The notes beneath the pieces are model-generated. The model did no database searches. It was not told the origin of the DNA and was given only the letters and a program-made list of their open reading frames with translations. Positions 11,778-58,785 of a stretch of DNA of 64,000 nucleotides are shown here, piece by piece. The translations under genes and the position numbers were made by a program. The stretch comes from Bradyrhizobium canariense. GTDB lineage: Bacteria > Pseudomonadota > Alphaproteobacteria > Rhizobiales > Xanthobacteraceae. The stretch spans positions 2,790,001 to 2,854,000 of the forward strand of contig NZ_LT629750.1 of NCBI RefSeq assembly GCF_900105125.1, read 5' to 3'. How positions within the stretch are numbered: position 1 is the stretch's first letter; each line of letters starts with the position of its first letter.

Positions 11778-12860
11778 CTAGCGCCACGGCTCGACAATGA
11801 TCTTGGTATGCCGCTCGGGGTTGGCGAGGTCCGTAAACGCCTGGGCCACGCCGTCGATGCCGACGCTTGCCGTCACCAGCGACGCCGCATCGACCTGCCC
11901 TTCCGCGATCAACCGCAGGGAATAGGCAAATTCCTCCGGCGTGTAGCCCAGCACATATTGAACATTCAGCTCCTTCAGGATGCCGAGCATCGGCTCGGAG
12001 CGATCGGTTTCCATGCAGACGCCGACCACGACGACGCGGGCATCGCGCGGCGCGCCTTCGAACACCTGCTGCAGCACGCCGGGAATGCCGACGCATTCGA
12101 AGATCAGCGCGGGCTTGAGCGCTGGCAGCATCGCCTGCAACGGCGGCCGCGCCGCTTTTTCTTCCGGCGACATCGCCGCGTGCTCGGCCCAGGCCACGTA
12201 AGGTTGCGTGCGCGCGGGATCGATGACGATATCGGCGCCCATCTTCTCGGCCAGCGCGCGCCGCGCCGGCGAATAATCCGCGGCGACAATCGGATGCAAA
12301 CCCTTGATCTTCAGCGCTGCGATCACCGCAAGCCCGACCGGCCCGCAGCCGATCACCAGCGGCACCTCGCCGCCACGCACATTCGCTTTTGCCACGGCGT
12401 GAACGCCGACCGCGAGGGGCTCGGTCAGCGCCGCATGCTCCGCCGCAAGTCCGTTCGGCACTTCAAGCAGCAGCGCCTCACTGAGCACCATGCGCTCGGC
12501 ATAGCCGCCGACATTGTCGTTGGAATAACCGATGCCCTGCGGGCCCTCCGGCGTCAGCAGCGCGGGGAGCGAACACACCCGGGTGCCGGCTTTCAGCTTG
12601 CGCTGCGTGCCCGGCCCGTAATCGAGAATCTCGCAGCAAAACTCGTGGCCGAACACGACGTCGCGGGCCAAATCCATCGGTTTGCGGCCGGGAAGGTGCT
12701 TTGTCATTTCGACCATGCGATGGGCGTGCTTGCGCGCGTGCAAGTCCGAGCCGCAAATGCCGCAGGCCAGCGTCTTCACCAGCACCTGCCCCGCGGCCGG
12801 TTTGGGGTCGGGCAACGTGCCGACCACGATCTCGCCGTTCCTGAAAATGGCAGCGCGCAT
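11778..12860 (-). CDS. Zinc-binding alcohol dehydrogenase (MDR), single catalytic zinc type
   Basis: 360 aa from ATG 12858-12860 (MRAAIFRNGEIVVG). Catalytic zinc ligands appear in LACGICGSDLHARKH and FGHEFCCEILDYG. The four-Cys structural zinc loop is missing: the region reads VCSLPALLTPEGPQGIGYSNDNVGGYAE. The Rossmann motif is VIGCGPVGLAVIAALK. It oxidises an alcohol or diol with NAD(P)+; the substrate is unknown. It is convergent with the quinone reductase-like gene. Confidence 0.85.
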   Translation of the reverse strand: MRAAIFRNGEIVVGTLPDPKPAAGQVLVKTLACGICGSDLHARKHAHRMVEMTKHLPGRKPMDLARDVVFGHEFCCEILDYGPGTQRKLKAGTRVCSLPALLTPEGPQGIGYSNDNVGGYAERMVLSEALLLEVPNGLAAEHAALTEPLAVGVHAVAKANVRGGEVPLVIGCGPVGLAVIAALKIKGLHPIVAADYSPARRALAEKMGADIVIDPARTQPYVAWAEHAAMSPEEKAARPPLQAMLPALKPALIFECVGIPGVLQQVFEGAPRDARVVVVGVCMETDRSEPMLGILKELNVQYVLGYTPEEFAYSLRLIAEGQVDAASLVTASVGIDGVAQAFTDLANPERHTKIIVEPWR

Positions 12861-12966
12861 GGGTGTCCCTCGGATATTATGTGTTGTATTTCCCTTCCAC
12901 ATAAACATGGCGATGGAAACGGCGAAAGCGGAGCGGACCGTCCGAACGCTCTGCGATCGGACGCCG

Positions 12967-13953
12967 TCAGGGATTGGGCGACGGCTCGGACTGCACCAAC
13001 ACCTCAGATCGCCGCAACCGCTCCCGGTGCGCGGTATAAAGACCGCTGGCGACGATGATTGCGGCGCCGGTTACGGTCCAGACGTCAGGCACCTCGCCGA
13101 ACACGATGAAACCGAGGATACTGACCCACAGCAATTGCGTGTATGAAAACGGCGCGAGCACGGAAGCATCCGCATAGCGAAATGCCAGCACGACGATCCA
13201 CTGTCCCGCCGTCGACGCGATGCCGACGACAATGCCGAAGAAGATGTCGTGCCAGCTCGGATGGACCCAGACGAACGGCACCAGCGCGGACAGAATGCCG
13301 AGACCGACGATCGCGGAATAGGTCATGGTCGTGATCGCGTGCTCGGTGCCGCTCATCATGCGCGTCATGATCAAGGTGCAGGCCCAGGCCAGTGCCGACA
13401 CGATGGGAAAAAATGCAGCGGGATGAAATGCGCTGGAGCCCGGCCGCAGGACGATCAGCACACCGATCAATCCAACCGCGGTCGCCAACCAGCGGCGAAC
13501 GCCGACGCTCTCTCCGAGAAAGACGATCGACAGCGCGGTGACGAACAATGGCGAGACGAAGCTGGTGGCGGACGCTTCCGCCATCGGGAGAAATCGCAAG
13601 CCGGAAATGAAGAACAGCGAAGACGCGAGCAGCGCGACGCCCCGGACGACCTGCAGACCGGGCCGCCTGGTTTGCAGCGCATAAAGCGGCGAACCCGGCA
13701 GCATCGCGGGAAACATGATCAGCGCGAACACCAGAAATCGAATCCACGCGATCTCGGTCGAAGGCAGCGTCGCCGACAGATATTTCGACGTGACGTCCGA
13801 AGACCCCAGAAACACCGTCGATGCGAGGATCAGCGCGATGCCGCGGAACGGCCGATCGGCTCGCGCCGGCGCGGTACGTGCGGGCGGCTTCTTCGCGGGC
13901 AAAGGCAATGGAGCATGGTCCAGCCTGGCGGACACGGCTGATGGCGGGGTCAA
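12967..13953 (-). CDS. EamA/DMT-family inner-membrane transporter
   Basis: 328 aa, hydrophobic throughout with about ten membrane segments and the EamA duplication (first half beginning FRGIALILASTVFLGSSDV, second beginning FFPIVSALAWACTLIMTRM). The only upstream start in frame is TTG at 13953 (an in-frame TAG lies two codons before); a GTG at codon 7 is another option. The first 35 residues are Pro/Ala/Arg-rich and cytoplasmic. Probable metabolite exporter; substrate not predictable. Confidence 0.85.
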   Translation of the reverse strand: MTPPSAVSARLDHAPLPLPAKKPPARTAPARADRPFRGIALILASTVFLGSSDVTSKYLSATLPSTEIAWIRFLVFALIMFPAMLPGSPLYALQTRRPGLQVVRGVALLASSLFFISGLRFLPMAEASATSFVSPLFVTALSIVFLGESVGVRRWLATAVGLIGVLIVLRPGSSAFHPAAFFPIVSALAWACTLIMTRMMSGTEHAITTMTYSAIVGLGILSALVPFVWVHPSWHDIFFGIVVGIASTAGQWIVVLAFRYADASVLAPFSYTQLLWVSILGFIVFGEVPDVWTVTGAAIIVASGLYTAHRERLRRSEVLVQSEPSPNP

Positions 13954-53305: not shown

Positions 53306-54562
53306 ATGAAAAAAGATCGCCAGCAATCCGTCCTCGGCCGCAAGAACAGCGCAAATCCAACTCTGTCGAAGCCGCAGAGCCGCCGCCAATTCCTTCTGAA
53401 GACAGGCGGCGTGCTTGCCGCCGGCGCATTCGGCGCGGTGCCATTGCGCGGCTGGGCCGCCGACCCCGTCAATATCGGCGCGCTTTATCCAACCACCGGA
53501 AGCATGGCGCAAATCGGCGTCGGCTGCGTCGCTGCGGCCAAACTCGCGGTCGAGATGATCAACGACGCCGGCGGCATCAAATCGCTCGGCGGCGCCAAAC
53601 TCAACCTGATCCTCTCCGACGTGCAGAGCGACACCACGGTCACCCGCACCGAAACCGACCGGCTGATTACCGGAAATAAATTGTCGGCGATCCATGGCTG
53701 CTTCGCCAGCGCGCTGACGCTGATCGCCAGCGAAGTGGCGGAACGCGCAAAGGTGCCGTTGCTTACCGGTTCGAGTTCAGATCAGCTCAACAAGGGACGG
53801 ACCTACACCTTCACGCCGTTTGCGCGCGCCTCGCAGTTTGCGCGGGCGCAGTTGCAGATGGCGAAACTCGTCAGCGACAAGCCGAAGGTCGCCGTGATCT
53901 TCGAGAATACCGCGTTCGGCACCTCGACCTCGAACGGGCTCAAGGAGCTGGCGCCCGCCGAGGGCGTCGAGATCGTCATGTTCGAGCCCTACTCTGCCGG
54001 GTTCACCGACGCGAGCCCGCTGATCAACAAGGTCAAATCGTCAGGCGCCAACGCCCTGTTCTCGGTTTCCTACCTCAACGACCTCATTCTGATCGTGCGG
54101 ACCGTCAAGCAGGTCGGCCTCGATATCGCGATCAACGGCGGCTCCGGCGGCTTCGTGATCCCGGATTTCTACAAGAATGTCGGCAAGCTCGCAGAAGGCT
54201 TGCAGGGTGTGGCGCACTGGAACCACGACATGGACGACAACGCCCAGAAGGTGAATGCCGAATACAAAAAGCGCACCGGCGATTTCCTGTTCGAATATGC
54301 CGGCGGCTTGGTCGCGCAGACCTTCATGATCGCCGACGCGCTGGAGCGTGCAGGCTCCCCCGATCCGCAAAAGGTTCGCGAAGCGCTGTCGACGCTCGAC
54401 GTTTCGTCGGGCTACGCGGCAATGGCGCCGGGCGGAAAGGTCAAATTCGGCCCCGACGGCAAGAACGTATATGGCCGCCCGGTCGGGGTGCAGTGGCAGA
54501 ACGGCGATCTGGCCAGCGTGTTTCCGAAGGAAGATGCCCGCGCACCGCTGCTGAAAACCTGA
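53306..54562 (+). CDS. Branched-chain amino acid-type ABC transporter, periplasmic binding protein
   Basis: 418 aa. Begins MKKDRQQSV with a GGGGGAG ribosome site. Twin-arginine signal SRRQFLLKTGGVLAAGAFGAVP, ending near WAADP. The receptor follows the LivK/Peripla_BP_6 pattern: NIGALYPTTGSMAQIGVGCVAAAKLAVEMINDAGGI and VRTVKQVGLDIAINGGSGGFVIPDFYKN. The ligand may be an amide or aromatic acid rather than an amino acid; this cannot be read. First gene of the operon; livH begins 15 bp later. Confidence 0.9.
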   Translation: MKKDRQQSVLGRKNSANPTLSKPQSRRQFLLKTGGVLAAGAFGAVPLRGWAADPVNIGALYPTTGSMAQIGVGCVAAAKLAVEMINDAGGIKSLGGAKLNLILSDVQSDTTVTRTETDRLITGNKLSAIHGCFASALTLIASEVAERAKVPLLTGSSSDQLNKGRTYTFTPFARASQFARAQLQMAKLVSDKPKVAVIFENTAFGTSTSNGLKELAPAEGVEIVMFEPYSAGFTDASPLINKVKSSGANALFSVSYLNDLILIVRTVKQVGLDIAINGGSGGFVIPDFYKNVGKLAEGLQGVAHWNHDMDDNAQKVNAEYKKRTGDFLFEYAGGLVAQTFMIADALERAGSPDPQKVREALSTLDVSSGYAAMAPGGKVKFGPDGKNVYGRPVGVQWQNGDLASVFPKEDARAPLLKT

Positions 54563-54577
54563 CGCCGGTCGGATCAG

Positions 54578-55447
54578 ATGTTGGAGACAGTGACCCAGGC
54601 CGTGATCAACGGCCTGCTCATCGGCGGCATCTACGCGCTCGTCAGCATCGGCGTCACGCTGATCTTCGGCGTGGTCAAGATCGTCAATTTCGCCCAGGGC
54701 GAATTCGTGATGATCGGGATGTATATCAGCTTCTTTCTCGCCACCTATTTCGGCATCGATCCGCTGGTATCGCTGGTCGTCACCATGCCGGTGCTGTTTT
54801 TGGCGGGCGTGCTGATCCAGCATTTTCTGATCCGCAGGGTGCTGGGGCCGAACGACATGCCCCAGATCTTCCTGACATTTGCCTTGTCGCTGCTGCTGCT
54901 GAACCTCGCGCTGATGTTGTTCAGCGCGAACTACCGCACCGTCCACACCTCCTATTCGGATGAAGCCTTCCATCTCGGCGGCCTTTATATCCCGGTGGCA
55001 AAACTCATTGCCTTTGTCGTCGCGATGATCCTGAGCGGAGCGCTCTGGGTGTTCCTGCACACCACCGATCTCGGCAAGGCGATGCGCGCCGCATCCCAGA
55101 ACCGGGACGTCGCTACATTGATGGGCATCAATCCCAACCGCGTGTTCTGCGTCGCGCTCGGCATCGCGCTGGCGCTGGCCGGCGCGGCAGGCTCGCTGCT
55201 GATGCCGTTCTACTCGGCCTACCCATTTGTCGGACAAGTCTTCGTGCTGATGGCGTTTGTCGCTGTGGTGCTGGGAACGCTTGGAAACGTCATGGGTGCG
55301 CTGATCGCCAGCCTGATGATGGGAGTAGCGGAGTCGCTCGGCATTCAATATGTCGGCGCCGATTCCGGATTGATCGTCGTGTTCGCCATGCTTCTTCTGA
55401 CGCTGGCCTTTAAGCCCAACGGTCTTGGCGGCGGGAGAGCGCGCTAG
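54578..55447 (+). CDS. livH: ABC transporter permease, LivH type
   Basis: 289 aa, about eight membrane helices. MLETVTQAVINGLLIGGIYALVSIGVTLIFGVVKIVNFAQGEFVMIGMYISF is the classic LivH opening; TDLGKAMRAASQNRDVATLMGINPNRV is the coupling (EAA-like) loop. The stop overlaps the livM GTG by one base (TAGTG), so translation is coupled. Confidence 0.93.
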   Translation: MLETVTQAVINGLLIGGIYALVSIGVTLIFGVVKIVNFAQGEFVMIGMYISFFLATYFGIDPLVSLVVTMPVLFLAGVLIQHFLIRRVLGPNDMPQIFLTFALSLLLLNLALMLFSANYRTVHTSYSDEAFHLGGLYIPVAKLIAFVVAMILSGALWVFLHTTDLGKAMRAASQNRDVATLMGINPNRVFCVALGIALALAGAAGSLLMPFYSAYPFVGQVFVLMAFVAVVLGTLGNVMGALIASLMMGVAESLGIQYVGADSGLIVVFAMLLLTLAFKPNGLGGGRAR

Positions 55448-56433
55448 TGCACAAAATCAGCAAATGGAGCGTGCTTTCGATCGCGGCGCTTGCCGCGGTT
55501 ATGATCGTGCTGCCGCAGGTGGTCACCAACGGTTTTGCGATCGACATCTTCATCCGCATCCTGCTGTTCTCCTTCATCGGGGTCGCCTGGAATCTGATGG
55601 GCGGGTACGCCAAGCAGTTGTCGCTGGGACACGCCGCCTATTTCGGACTGGGCGCCTACACCTCGACGATCATGCAGGTCGATTTCGGCATCTCGCCCTG
55701 GATCGGGATGGTCGCGGGCGGCGTGGTGGCGATGCTGGCGAGCCTGCCGATCGGCTGGCTGTGTTTCCGCCTGCGCGGCCCTTATTTCACCATCGCCACC
55801 ATCGCGACCGCGCAAGCGTTGATGCTGATCTTCCTGAAATTTCGCGACTTCGCCTGGGGCGCCGAAGGCACGACCATTCCAAATCTCGGCAACGCACCGC
55901 TGATGATGCAGTTCGACGCAAAATCCTCTTACTATTACGTCGTGCTCGGACTGCTCGCCTTCGGGCTCGCGATCACCTACCGGATCGAAAACTCCTGGAT
56001 GGGTTATTATCTCGTCGCCATCGGCGAGGATGAAGACGCTGCCGAAGCCATCGGCGTCAACGCGCCGAGCATGAAGCGCAACATCTACATGATCAGCGCC
56101 TTCCTCACCGCGCTGGCCGGCACGTTTTATACCCAATACATCTACTTCATCGATCCCGCGACCGCCTTCAGTTTCAATATCTCGATCGAGGCCGCGCTGG
56201 TGTCGATCGTCGGCGGCATCGGAACGTTATGGGGACCGGTGATCGGAACCATCTTATTGGAGACGACATCCACGCTGTTGCAAAGCTGGCTCGGCAGCTC
56301 GATCGCCGGTCTGCAACTAACCGTCTACAGCCTGATCCTGATGGCCGTCATTCTGTGGCGGCCGACCGGGTTGATCGGAGTCGTGACCGACGCCTATCAG
56401 CGCTATGTCCACCGCCGTCCGGCGCGAGCGTAG
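55447..56433 (+). CDS. livM: ABC transporter permease, LivM type
   Basis: 328 aa, GTG start overlapping the livH stop. Membrane protein with GVAWNLMGGYAKQLSLGHAAYFGLGAYTSTIM and the coupling loop IGEDEDAAEAIGVNAPSMKRNIYMISAFLTALAGTFYTQY. It forms the translocation pathway with LivH. Confidence 0.93.
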   Translation: MHKISKWSVLSIAALAAVMIVLPQVVTNGFAIDIFIRILLFSFIGVAWNLMGGYAKQLSLGHAAYFGLGAYTSTIMQVDFGISPWIGMVAGGVVAMLASLPIGWLCFRLRGPYFTIATIATAQALMLIFLKFRDFAWGAEGTTIPNLGNAPLMMQFDAKSSYYYVVLGLLAFGLAITYRIENSWMGYYLVAIGEDEDAAEAIGVNAPSMKRNIYMISAFLTALAGTFYTQYIYFIDPATAFSFNISIEAALVSIVGGIGTLWGPVIGTILLETTSTLLQSWLGSSIAGLQLTVYSLILMAVILWRPTGLIGVVTDAYQRYVHRRPARA

Positions 56434-56442
56434 GCGACAGCC

Positions 56443-57186
56443 ATGGCAGACGCGCTAATTATCCGTGGATTGAGCAAACGCTTCGGCGGCCTGCGCGCCG
56501 TGCAGGACGTCAGTTTTTCGGTGAAGGAAAACGAGACCGTCGCACTGATCGGACCGAACGGCGCCGGCAAGACCACGAGCTTTCATCTGATCACCGGCTT
56601 TCATCGGCCCGACTCAGGCTCGGTGATGGCCTATGGCCGCGAGATCGTCGGCCTGAAACCTCATGATATCTGCGCGCACGGCCTGGCGCGAACGTTTCAG
56701 GTCGCAAAGCCGTTTGGCGCCATGACCGTGCTCGCCAACGTCATGACCGGCGCTTTCCTGCGCGACAAGAACGCCACTGTCGCGCGTGAGAAGGCCCGCG
56801 AAGTGATCGAGTTCGTCGGCCTCGCGGCCAAGGAGAACACGCCGGCGAAGGATCTGACCACGATCGATCAGCGCCGGCTTGAAATGGCGCGGGCGCTGGC
56901 CACCCAGCCGCGGCTGCTGCTGCTCGACGAGGTGATGGCCGGGCTAAATCCATCCGAGATCGACCAGGCGGTCGGCCTGATTGGAAAGCTCTCCCAGCGC
57001 GGGCTTACCATCGTCATCGTCGAACACGTGATGCGCGCCATCATGGCGGTTGCCCGTCACATCGTGGTGCTCGATCACGGGCAGAAGATCGCCGAAGGCT
57101 CCCCTAAGGAGATCGTGGAAAATCCGGAGGTGGTCCGCGCCTATTTGGGCTCCTATGTGCATCCACCGACCGCGGGAGAGAGCTAG
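56443..57186 (+). CDS. livG: ABC transporter ATP-binding protein, LivG type
   Basis: 247 aa. Walker A GPNGAGKTT (residues 37-45), Walker B LLLLDEVMAGLNPSE, switch His in IVIVEHVMRAIM. The ABC signature is degenerate: LTTIDQ at 139-144 instead of LSxGQ, with RRLEMARAL after it. In a LivG/LivF dimer this signature would complete the LivF Walker A site. The stop overlaps the livF GTG (TAGTG). Confidence 0.93.
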   Translation: MADALIIRGLSKRFGGLRAVQDVSFSVKENETVALIGPNGAGKTTSFHLITGFHRPDSGSVMAYGREIVGLKPHDICAHGLARTFQVAKPFGAMTVLANVMTGAFLRDKNATVAREKAREVIEFVGLAAKENTPAKDLTTIDQRRLEMARALATQPRLLLLDEVMAGLNPSEIDQAVGLIGKLSQRGLTIVIVEHVMRAIMAVARHIVVLDHGQKIAEGSPKEIVENPEVVRAYLGSYVHPPTAGES

Positions 57187-57890
57187 TGCTCCAATTATCA
57201 GGCGTGAGCGCAAGCTACGGGTCGGTGCCGGCGATCCACAATGTCAGCATCGAGATCGGCGAAGGTGAAGCTGTCGGCCTGTTGGGCGCCAACGGTGCCG
57301 GCAAAAGCACAACCCTGCGCGCAGTCTCCGGCCTCGTGAAAATGACATCGGGCATGGTGACGTTTGCCGGCGTCAATCTCGCGTCGCTTCCGCCGCATAA
57401 AATTCCGGAATTGGGGATCGCCCATGTGCCGGAAGGCCGCCAGGTTTTCCCTGACATGACCGTGCAGGAAAATCTCGAGATCGGCTCCTACGTGCCGAAG
57501 GCGAAAGCGGAACGCAGCCGTACCCTTGAGCTGGTCTATGGCATCTTTCCGCGATTGGCCGACCGCAAGAAGCAACTGGCGGGCACCATGAGCGGCGGCG
57601 AGTAGCAGATGCTCGCGGTCGGCCGCGGCCTGATGCTGAAGCCGCGGCTTTTGATGCTTGACGAACCCTCGTTGGGCCTGGCCCCCGTCATGACCGATGT
57701 GACCTTCGAGAAGATCGGCGAAATCCACAAGATGGGCACCGCCATCTTGTTGGTCGAGCAGAATGTCAGCCGCGCGCTGTCGCTGGTTCAGCGCGCCTAC
57801 GTGCTGGAAAGCGGCAATGTGATCATGCAGGGCACCAGCGCCGAACTCGCCAACAACAAGCAGGTACAGGCGGCGTATCTGGGGATCTAG
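57186..57890 (+). pseudogene. livF: LivF-type ATP-binding protein interrupted by an in-frame amber codon
   Basis: GTG at 57186. The 234-codon frame has the length of an intact LivF: Walker A GANGAGKST (34-42), IAHVPEGRQVFPDMTVQENLEIGSY, MSGGE, then TAG at 57603-57605, then Q-MLAVGRGLMLKPRLLMLDEPSLGLAP and AILLVEQNVSRAL in the same frame. The amber replaces the Gln of SGGEQQ, one C-to-T change from CAG. Halves: 139 aa (57186-57605) and from ATG 57609 onward 93 aa. The rest of the coding sequence looks intact, so this is a recent mutation, a readthrough case or a sequencing error. No other livF copy is seen in the window. Confidence 0.85.
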
Positions 57891-57903
57891 CGAAACACTC
57901 CGT

Positions 57904-57984
57904 CGTCATTGCGAGGAGCGAAGCGACGAAGCAATCCAGAATCTTCAACTTGGCTCTGGATTGCTTCGCTGCGCTCGCAATGAC
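57904..57984. repeat. Palindromic intergenic repeat (gtcattgcgagg...gcaatgac type)
   Basis: gtcattgcgaggagcg ... gctgcgctcgcaatgac, containing gaagcaatccaga / tctggattgcttc as the inner stem. It starts 14 bp after livF. Confidence 0.8.
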
Positions 57985-58001
57985 GGCCGCTAGCCTCGAT
58001 C

Positions 58002-58577
58002 CAAATTTTCAAACAGCCGAGAAAAAGATGCGCGTCCGCGATCCCACGGCGCGATGCGCCCGGGTTGTGCAGGAATCATCCGCCCGGAGGGCGTGGGGAA
58101 TGCCGGGTGCCCGCCGCACCCGCAGCCTCGTGTGTAAAAGTGAGATGGCACACGAGTTAGTCACCACGAGTCCACCGGGTTCACCCGGCATTCCCGCACG
58201 CAATGGTTTTAACGGTTTCCTTCGCGCTCTCCCCGGTGATCGGGCTTTCTTGTCACCGTCGTCCAGCGGATGAAGGTTTTGTCAGAGCCCGGTCGGGCCG
58301 ACTTCGCCTCCGCTGAACTTGACGCCGGCGTCGAGGCGTCAGGACCACACGACTTCGCCGTCCGCAGCAACATCTGTCGTCTGCGCGCCGTTGACCGCTC
58401 ACGGGAAACCCGCCCTACGATCACGTCACACGCCCGACGCTGCCGCGTCCACCGCATCCCGCCCCGCGTCCGTGACGATCGCGATACGCCCCTGTTTGGG
58501 GCGGGACAGATTCGGCTTACAGCTGTTTCTAGCAGGCAAGGAAGCGAAATAATTTCGAAAACAGAACTGGACAGCAG
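58002..58577 (+). repeat. Long interspersed repeat, copy B (~576 bp)
   Basis: Opposite orientation to copy A at 39178-39767, similar along its length with a 68-bp identical block at 58148-58215. It fills most of the 895-bp gap between livF and the alkylsulfatase. No gene is credible inside it. Confidence 0.85.
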
Positions 58578-58597
58578 AATCACTGGAGCGAGCAGCG

Positions 58598-58673
58598 TAG
58601 CCCGGATGAGCCAAGCGATATCCGGGGCGGCATCGCATTCGCTCCCGGATATCGCTTCGCTCATCCGGGCTAC
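58598..58673. repeat. Palindromic intergenic repeat (gtagcccggatgag...ctcatccgggctac type)
   Basis: gtagcccggatgagc / gctcatccgggctac inverted ends enclosing gcgatatccggg / cccggatatcgc. Adjacent to copy B. Confidence 0.8.
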
Positions 58674-58685
58674 GATATCTTCACC

Positions 58686-58769
58686 GTCGTTGCGAGCGCA
58701 GCGAAGCAATCCATCTCATCACAGAAGGAAAGAATGGATTGCTTCGTCGCTCCGCTCCTCGCAATGACG
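58686..58769. repeat. Palindromic intergenic repeat (cgttgcgagcg...gcaatgac type)
   Basis: gtcgttgcgagcgcagcgaagcaatcc ... ggattgcttcgtcgctccgctcctcgcaatgac, same family as 57904. Ends just before the alkylsulfatase stop. Confidence 0.75.
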
Positions 58770-58785
58770 TTGGACTGCTTTTCGC

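Follow-up and report, generated by a model that had tools for sequence, protein, structure and literature searches.

A single in-frame amber codon in a livF gene of Bradyrhizobium canariense is probably a recent null allele

The livF gene at the end of a liv gene cluster of Bradyrhizobium canariense is probably a recent null allele, in which a single nonsense substitution truncates LivF right after the signature pentapeptide. The gene lies in the window, by which we mean the whole stretch of 64,000 nucleotides that was analysed (positions 2790001-2854000 of the single 7,841,944-base contig of the chromosome). Across 53306-57890 of the window, the gene order is binding protein, LivH, LivM, LivG and LivF. 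LivF is therefore found in a cluster with a binding protein, two permeases and LivG, and livF is the last of the five neighbours. The features are as follows, in positions of the window.

53306..54562, forward strand: substrate-binding protein gene (Peripla_BP_6), an open frame (ORF and profile match).
54578..55447, forward strand: livH-type permease gene (BPD_transp_2), an open frame (ORF and profile match).
55447..56433, forward strand: livM-type permease gene (BPD_transp_2), an open frame (ORF and profile match).
56443..57186, forward strand: livG ATPase gene, an open frame, with LTTIDQ at residue 138 where LSGGQ would be expected (ORF and profile match).
57186..57605, forward strand: first part of livF, 139 codons from a GTG start, running from Walker A (GANGAGKS) to MSGGE and followed by TAG.
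57603..57605, forward strand: in-frame amber codon, codon 140 of livF, which is glutamine in 36 of 36 compared orthologues.
57609..57890, forward strand: second part of livF, in frame with the first, 93 codons starting at an internal ATG, with LLMLDE, the D-loop, VEQN and a BCA_ABC_TP_C tail.

Judging from the gene spacing, the five liv genes would form one operon, and the cluster is predicted to encode an ABC importer of the branched-chain amino acid type, one of many such importers in the genome. Scans of the region gave matches at the level of chance, both for promoters (1 match, 1.2 expected) and for terminators (6 matches, 4.7 expected). Directly 3' of livF, at 57893-58780 of the window, we noticed three pairs of long inverted repeats (30-46 bases, 89-97% complementary), which we take to be REP-like palindromic elements.

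The original prediction had placed an in-frame TAG in the signature region of livF and had regarded the rest of the gene as intact. Reading of the frame confirmed both points. Between the GTG start and the closing TAG (57186-57890), the only internal stop is the TAG at 57603-57605, codon 140 of 234, which sits between MSGGE and QMLAVGR. The match to the LivF profile NF008626 spans the whole length as two halves in the expected parts, the first half alone matching positions 5-142 and the second half alone positions 145-236 of 237. Scored singly, the halves reach 125 and 97.8 bits, far under the whole-protein cut-off of 441 bits. With X at the stop, the LivF sequence aligns without gaps over residues 1-234 to the closest solved structure, 1JI0 ('ABC transporter'), with which it shares the order of Walker A, signature, Walker B and C-terminal tail. 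The gene differs from the LivF family of branched-chain amino acid importers by the TAG at codon 140, which breaks the frame that would otherwise carry Walker A, signature and Walker B without interruption. It had also been proposed that the signature motif is what is hit. This did not hold for the pentapeptide itself; Walker A and all five signature residues (MSGGE) are upstream of the stop. Downstream of it are the elements that we take to be the signature helix, Walker B (LLMLDE), the D-loop and the switch region, following the usual naming of such motifs.

We compared the gene with its relatives. The search confirmed 143 of them and gave 80 loci. The orthologue comparison covered the 36 loci with identities of 74% or more and left out 44 whose identity does not exceed 54%. 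Among the closer loci, the relatives of livF are mostly from Bradyrhizobium. As codon 140 is a glutamine codon throughout the 36 orthologues, none of which contains an internal stop, the stop is no feature of the family. At the level of the genus, 265 genomes were searched, and 54 including our own matched livF at E <= 1e-110, the other 211 giving no match of that strength. None of the 53 other genomes with a strong match has an internal stop, in a search to which a split by frameshift would be invisible; this set overlaps with the 36 orthologues. When livG-livF was used as a DNA query against 60 relatives, strong matches (E = 0) came from the genome itself and from five others. In the tree, the present livF stands on a separate end branch among mostly Bradyrhizobium orthologues, with weakly supported forks nearby. 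The frame is thus disrupted relative to intact orthologues, as in a recent nonsense pseudogene. Recently formed bacterial pseudogenes with a single nonsense substitution are a known kind, and livF shares with them the one disrupting change, the intact orthologues and the open frames of its operon neighbours. Nothing sets it apart from them, and it would be too young for relaxed constraint. Among the titles and abstract beginnings covered by our literature search, no title concerned such a livF nonsense allele in Bradyrhizobium, which is not proof of absence.

In the protein database, the 139-residue form of LivF appears once, as P0122, the window's own protein, in a single-member cluster. Apart from it, the best 120 of 6409 matches to the first half comprise 119 proteins with identities of at most 91%, and with the read-through LivF as query the best 120 matches are at most 93% identical. 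Because this database is clustered at 90%, near-identical strains may hide inside its clusters. The contig recorded for P0122 has 7,842,044 bases and is thus 100 bases longer than the one analysed here (7,841,944). In the search with the second half, nine of the 120 listed proteins have exactly 93 residues, as would result from a start at the same internal ATG (P0181, P0201, P0202, P0207, P0215, P0224, P0227, P0254 and P0264); their longest contigs measure 304 to 5735 bases and come without context, so a broken gene and a contig end or gene-calling effect look alike in them. The same search also returned P0160, a protein of 100 residues with 179 members and no source given.

We then asked how old the stop is. 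Against the eight nearest relatives, dN/dS is 0.014-0.056 after the stop and 0.088-0.130 before it, and a comparison with the relative L092 after the stop gave 23 synonymous and 2 non-synonymous differences. The same pattern is seen among intact relatives, where 269 pairs in the 80-88% identity band gave a median pN/pS of 0.070 after and 0.224 before the site of the stop; the 30 pairs of the present gene with a relative gave 0.051 and 0.193, respectively. Residues unique to the present LivF number two before the stop and none after it. Three-taxon distances with ten outgroup pairs place 0.4-3.6 non-synonymous changes on the gene's own branch over ~213 sites after the stop, with a dS of 0.09-0.29 for that branch; these distances are noisy, as DNA identity to the nearest relatives is 86% and the tree has weakly supported forks close by. 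Full neutrality over the whole branch would give ~19-61 non-synonymous changes (dS multiplied by sites, calculated by hand). The part after the stop is thus as constrained as in intact relatives, which implies that the stop is either young, having occurred late on the branch, or bypassed. An old, decaying pseudogene was rejected, as constraint after the stop is not relaxed. The stop would have arisen late on the present lineage, or the second part would still be in use.

Constraint before and after the stop would equally be seen if the natural strain had an intact livF and the TAG were a sequencing or assembly error, or a variant confined to the sequenced culture. The TAG is known from a single genome, and the consensus of that genome is imperfect, with indel errors at the contig ends. 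The contig represents a circle whose overlap was left untrimmed, with bases 1-21500 repeated at the end, and over the ~19.8 kb collinear overlap the two assembled copies differ by 30 gaps and no substitutions, pointing to errors of the indel type at the contig ends. An erroneous TAG, however, requires a substitution. With only indels between the end copies, a random substitution error inside the contig is unlikely, and the inside of the contig should be at least as good as its ends. Moreover, among the ABC, permease and binding-protein matches listed for the genome, livF is the only one with a stop. We therefore consider an error or culture variant unlikely, though it is the least improbable of the alternatives to a null allele.

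The comparison of the two end copies brought up a further observation. A segment of 1748 bases (10512-12259 of L216, our own contig) is inverted in the other end copy (L219), with 100% identity. Inverted repeats of 24 bases flank it and contain possible start codons of two opposed ORFs of 370 and 247 amino acids, neither with a Pfam match, and it is adjoined by a tyrosine recombinase gene (Phage_integrase, 12388-13347). The segment resembles an invertible DNA switch that would select one of two genes.

The counts of stops in other transporter genes were obtained as follows. In a search for ABC proteins in the genome, 150 of 238 first-look candidates were scored and 152 matches obtained; among those listed, livF alone has an internal stop. 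No internal stops were found in 82 permease-domain matches or in 78 binding-protein matches. A PF00005 search, in which 150 of 313 candidates were scored, gave no stop in 150 rows, which include neither the present livF nor its livG. Among the matches listed for the three protein families, livF is thus the only conserved gene with an in-frame TAG. Genome-wide reassignment of the amber codon was rejected on the basis of these three families and of the operon's own TAG stops.

If livF is a null allele, ribosomes would stop at codon 140 and release a fragment of 139 residues that includes Walker A and MSGGE but lacks the signature helix, Walker B, D-loop and switch region. Neither ATP hydrolysis nor proper pairing with LivG would be expected of such a fragment, and the importer would therefore be without its own LivF and without the partner signature for the ATP site of LivG. 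The stop should leave expression of the four genes upstream of livF unaffected, since livF ends the cluster. A paralogous LivF might in principle serve the binding protein, permeases and LivG, an idea that is unsupported; among the matches listed, no LivF paralogue of the genome comes closer than 47-49% identity. The original prediction had offered a newly dead transporter as one possibility, and this is the simplest reading of our results, with the stop present and late on the lineage and the own LivF presumably non-functional. Besides the imperfect consensus and the clustering of the protein database, two points count against a null allele. The constraint after the stop is equally expected if the second part is still translated, and an ATG lies one codon past the stop, preceded by a stretch whose predicted pairing (-5.4 kcal/mol) is stronger than those of livH (-3.3) and livG (-4.4).

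Taking these points into account, we considered the possibility, also raised originally, that LivF works as two halves. A ribosome that stops at the TAG would restart at the ATG at 57609, and the two fragments would form a working split LivF. In addition to the continued constraint on the second part, there is a start codon close to the stop with a sequence resembling a Shine-Dalgarno (SD) element; the -5.4 kcal/mol refers to its pairing with the anti-Shine-Dalgarno tail, for which livM and livF themselves reach -7.4 kcal/mol. A review describes post-termination ribosomes that move more than 40 nt in either direction and restart near the stop, at the first start codon with an SD-like sequence ahead of it (PMC5972666). 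On the other hand, 5 of the 50 in-frame internal ATGs of the operon, 57609 included, pair as strongly or more, and the cut would part the signature loop from its helix. A stop is found in this gene in none of the 53 other genomes, among which a frameshift split would go unseen. Stop aside, 7 of the 9 relatives shown have identical codons 135-142, and nothing around the ATG therefore looks adapted. We regard a working split LivF produced by restart at this ATG as very improbable; it would be divided between signature loop and helix, form an ATPase with LivG and amount to a natural, one-mutation split of a nucleotide-binding domain. Proof that the halves work together would make them a clean natural experiment on the ways in which an ABC ATPase domain tolerates division.

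The other bypass that had been suggested is readthrough, in which a near-cognate or suppressor tRNA reads the amber codon and gives enough full-length LivF. Here too the constraint continuing after the stop is in favour, and ordinary low-level misreading requires no special tRNA. A dedicated tRNA was not detected. In our survey, 150 of 156 candidates were scored and 46 Rfam tRNA places were listed; a CTA anticodon is absent from the 44 tRNAs that ARAGORN identified there, in a list that is incomplete, as the expected tRNA-Ile(gat) and tRNA-Ala(tgc) are missing from it. These two tRNAs are expected in rRNA operons, and their absence is probably a limit of the search. A pattern for tRNAs with a CTA anticodon matched 6 places in the genome (38 in a reversed control), none of which was a tRNA according to ARAGORN. 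A search for PylS gave one match of 22.6 bits, with none over the cut-off of 178 bits. In addition, general amber suppression would be costly because TAG ends four of the five genes of the operon. Readthrough is, in our estimate, just as improbable as the split LivF. Compared with genes known for readthrough or reinitiation, livF shares the constraint past the stop and the ATG immediately after it, and differs in that no stop occurs in the 36 orthologues, no suppressor tRNA was found and no dedicated signal was seen. Beyond the continued constraint, nothing positive emerged for readthrough or two working halves: neither an amber tRNA, in the incomplete tRNA list, nor PylS was detected, and the codons around the stop look unadapted. 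Of these two bypasses, reinitiation is the stronger candidate, possible but unproven.

Concerning LivG, the translation of the ORF confirmed that it reads LTTIDQ. This had been considered a degenerate signature, but it turned out to be normal for the family. The 36 loci contain 35 orthologous LivGs (one locus is without LivG), of which 34 keep LTTIDQ and the remaining one has LTTMDQ. We also surveyed the 29 best paralogous loci of the genome (L002-L030), in which 28 LivGs and 28 LivFs could be aligned at the signature, one locus giving no LivG row and one no LivF row. LSGG is present in none of the 28 LivGs and the looser LSxGQ in three, in contrast to [LM]SGG[EQ] in all 28 LivFs. Local damage to the LivG signature was thus rejected, as the sequence is conserved in orthologues and typical of paralogues. 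That LivF supplies the sole LSGG-type signature of the pair was borne out; as an oddity of this operon the claim failed, as it is the rule in the paralogous loci surveyed. In the aligned column that we take to be that of the switch histidine, the LivG paralogues have H in 28 of 28 and the LivF paralogues Q in 25, K in one and H in two of 28; this region reads VEQN in all 36 orthologous LivFs and in 1JI0. The Walker B glutamate is kept in all 28 LivGs and all 28 LivFs of the paralogous loci. Among the titles and abstract beginnings searched, no title dealt with degeneracy of the LivG signature, which again is not proof of absence. Each ATP site of an ABC transporter combines the Walker motifs of one subunit with the signature of the other, according to a published article (PMC6703430). 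On the basis of these alignments, the LivG/LivF pair seems to combine a consensus ATP site with an altered one, and the consensus site would consist of the Walker motifs and histidine of LivG with the signature of LivF.

Our results, as far as sequence can tell, point to an ordinary recent loss-of-function mutation in livF, beside a LivG that appears normal for its family. The strain probably lacks one of its many importers of the branched-chain type, which has little meaning beyond annotation, where livF should carry a mark as disrupted. The more general side result is the asymmetry between LivG and LivF across 29 paralogous loci of this importer family.
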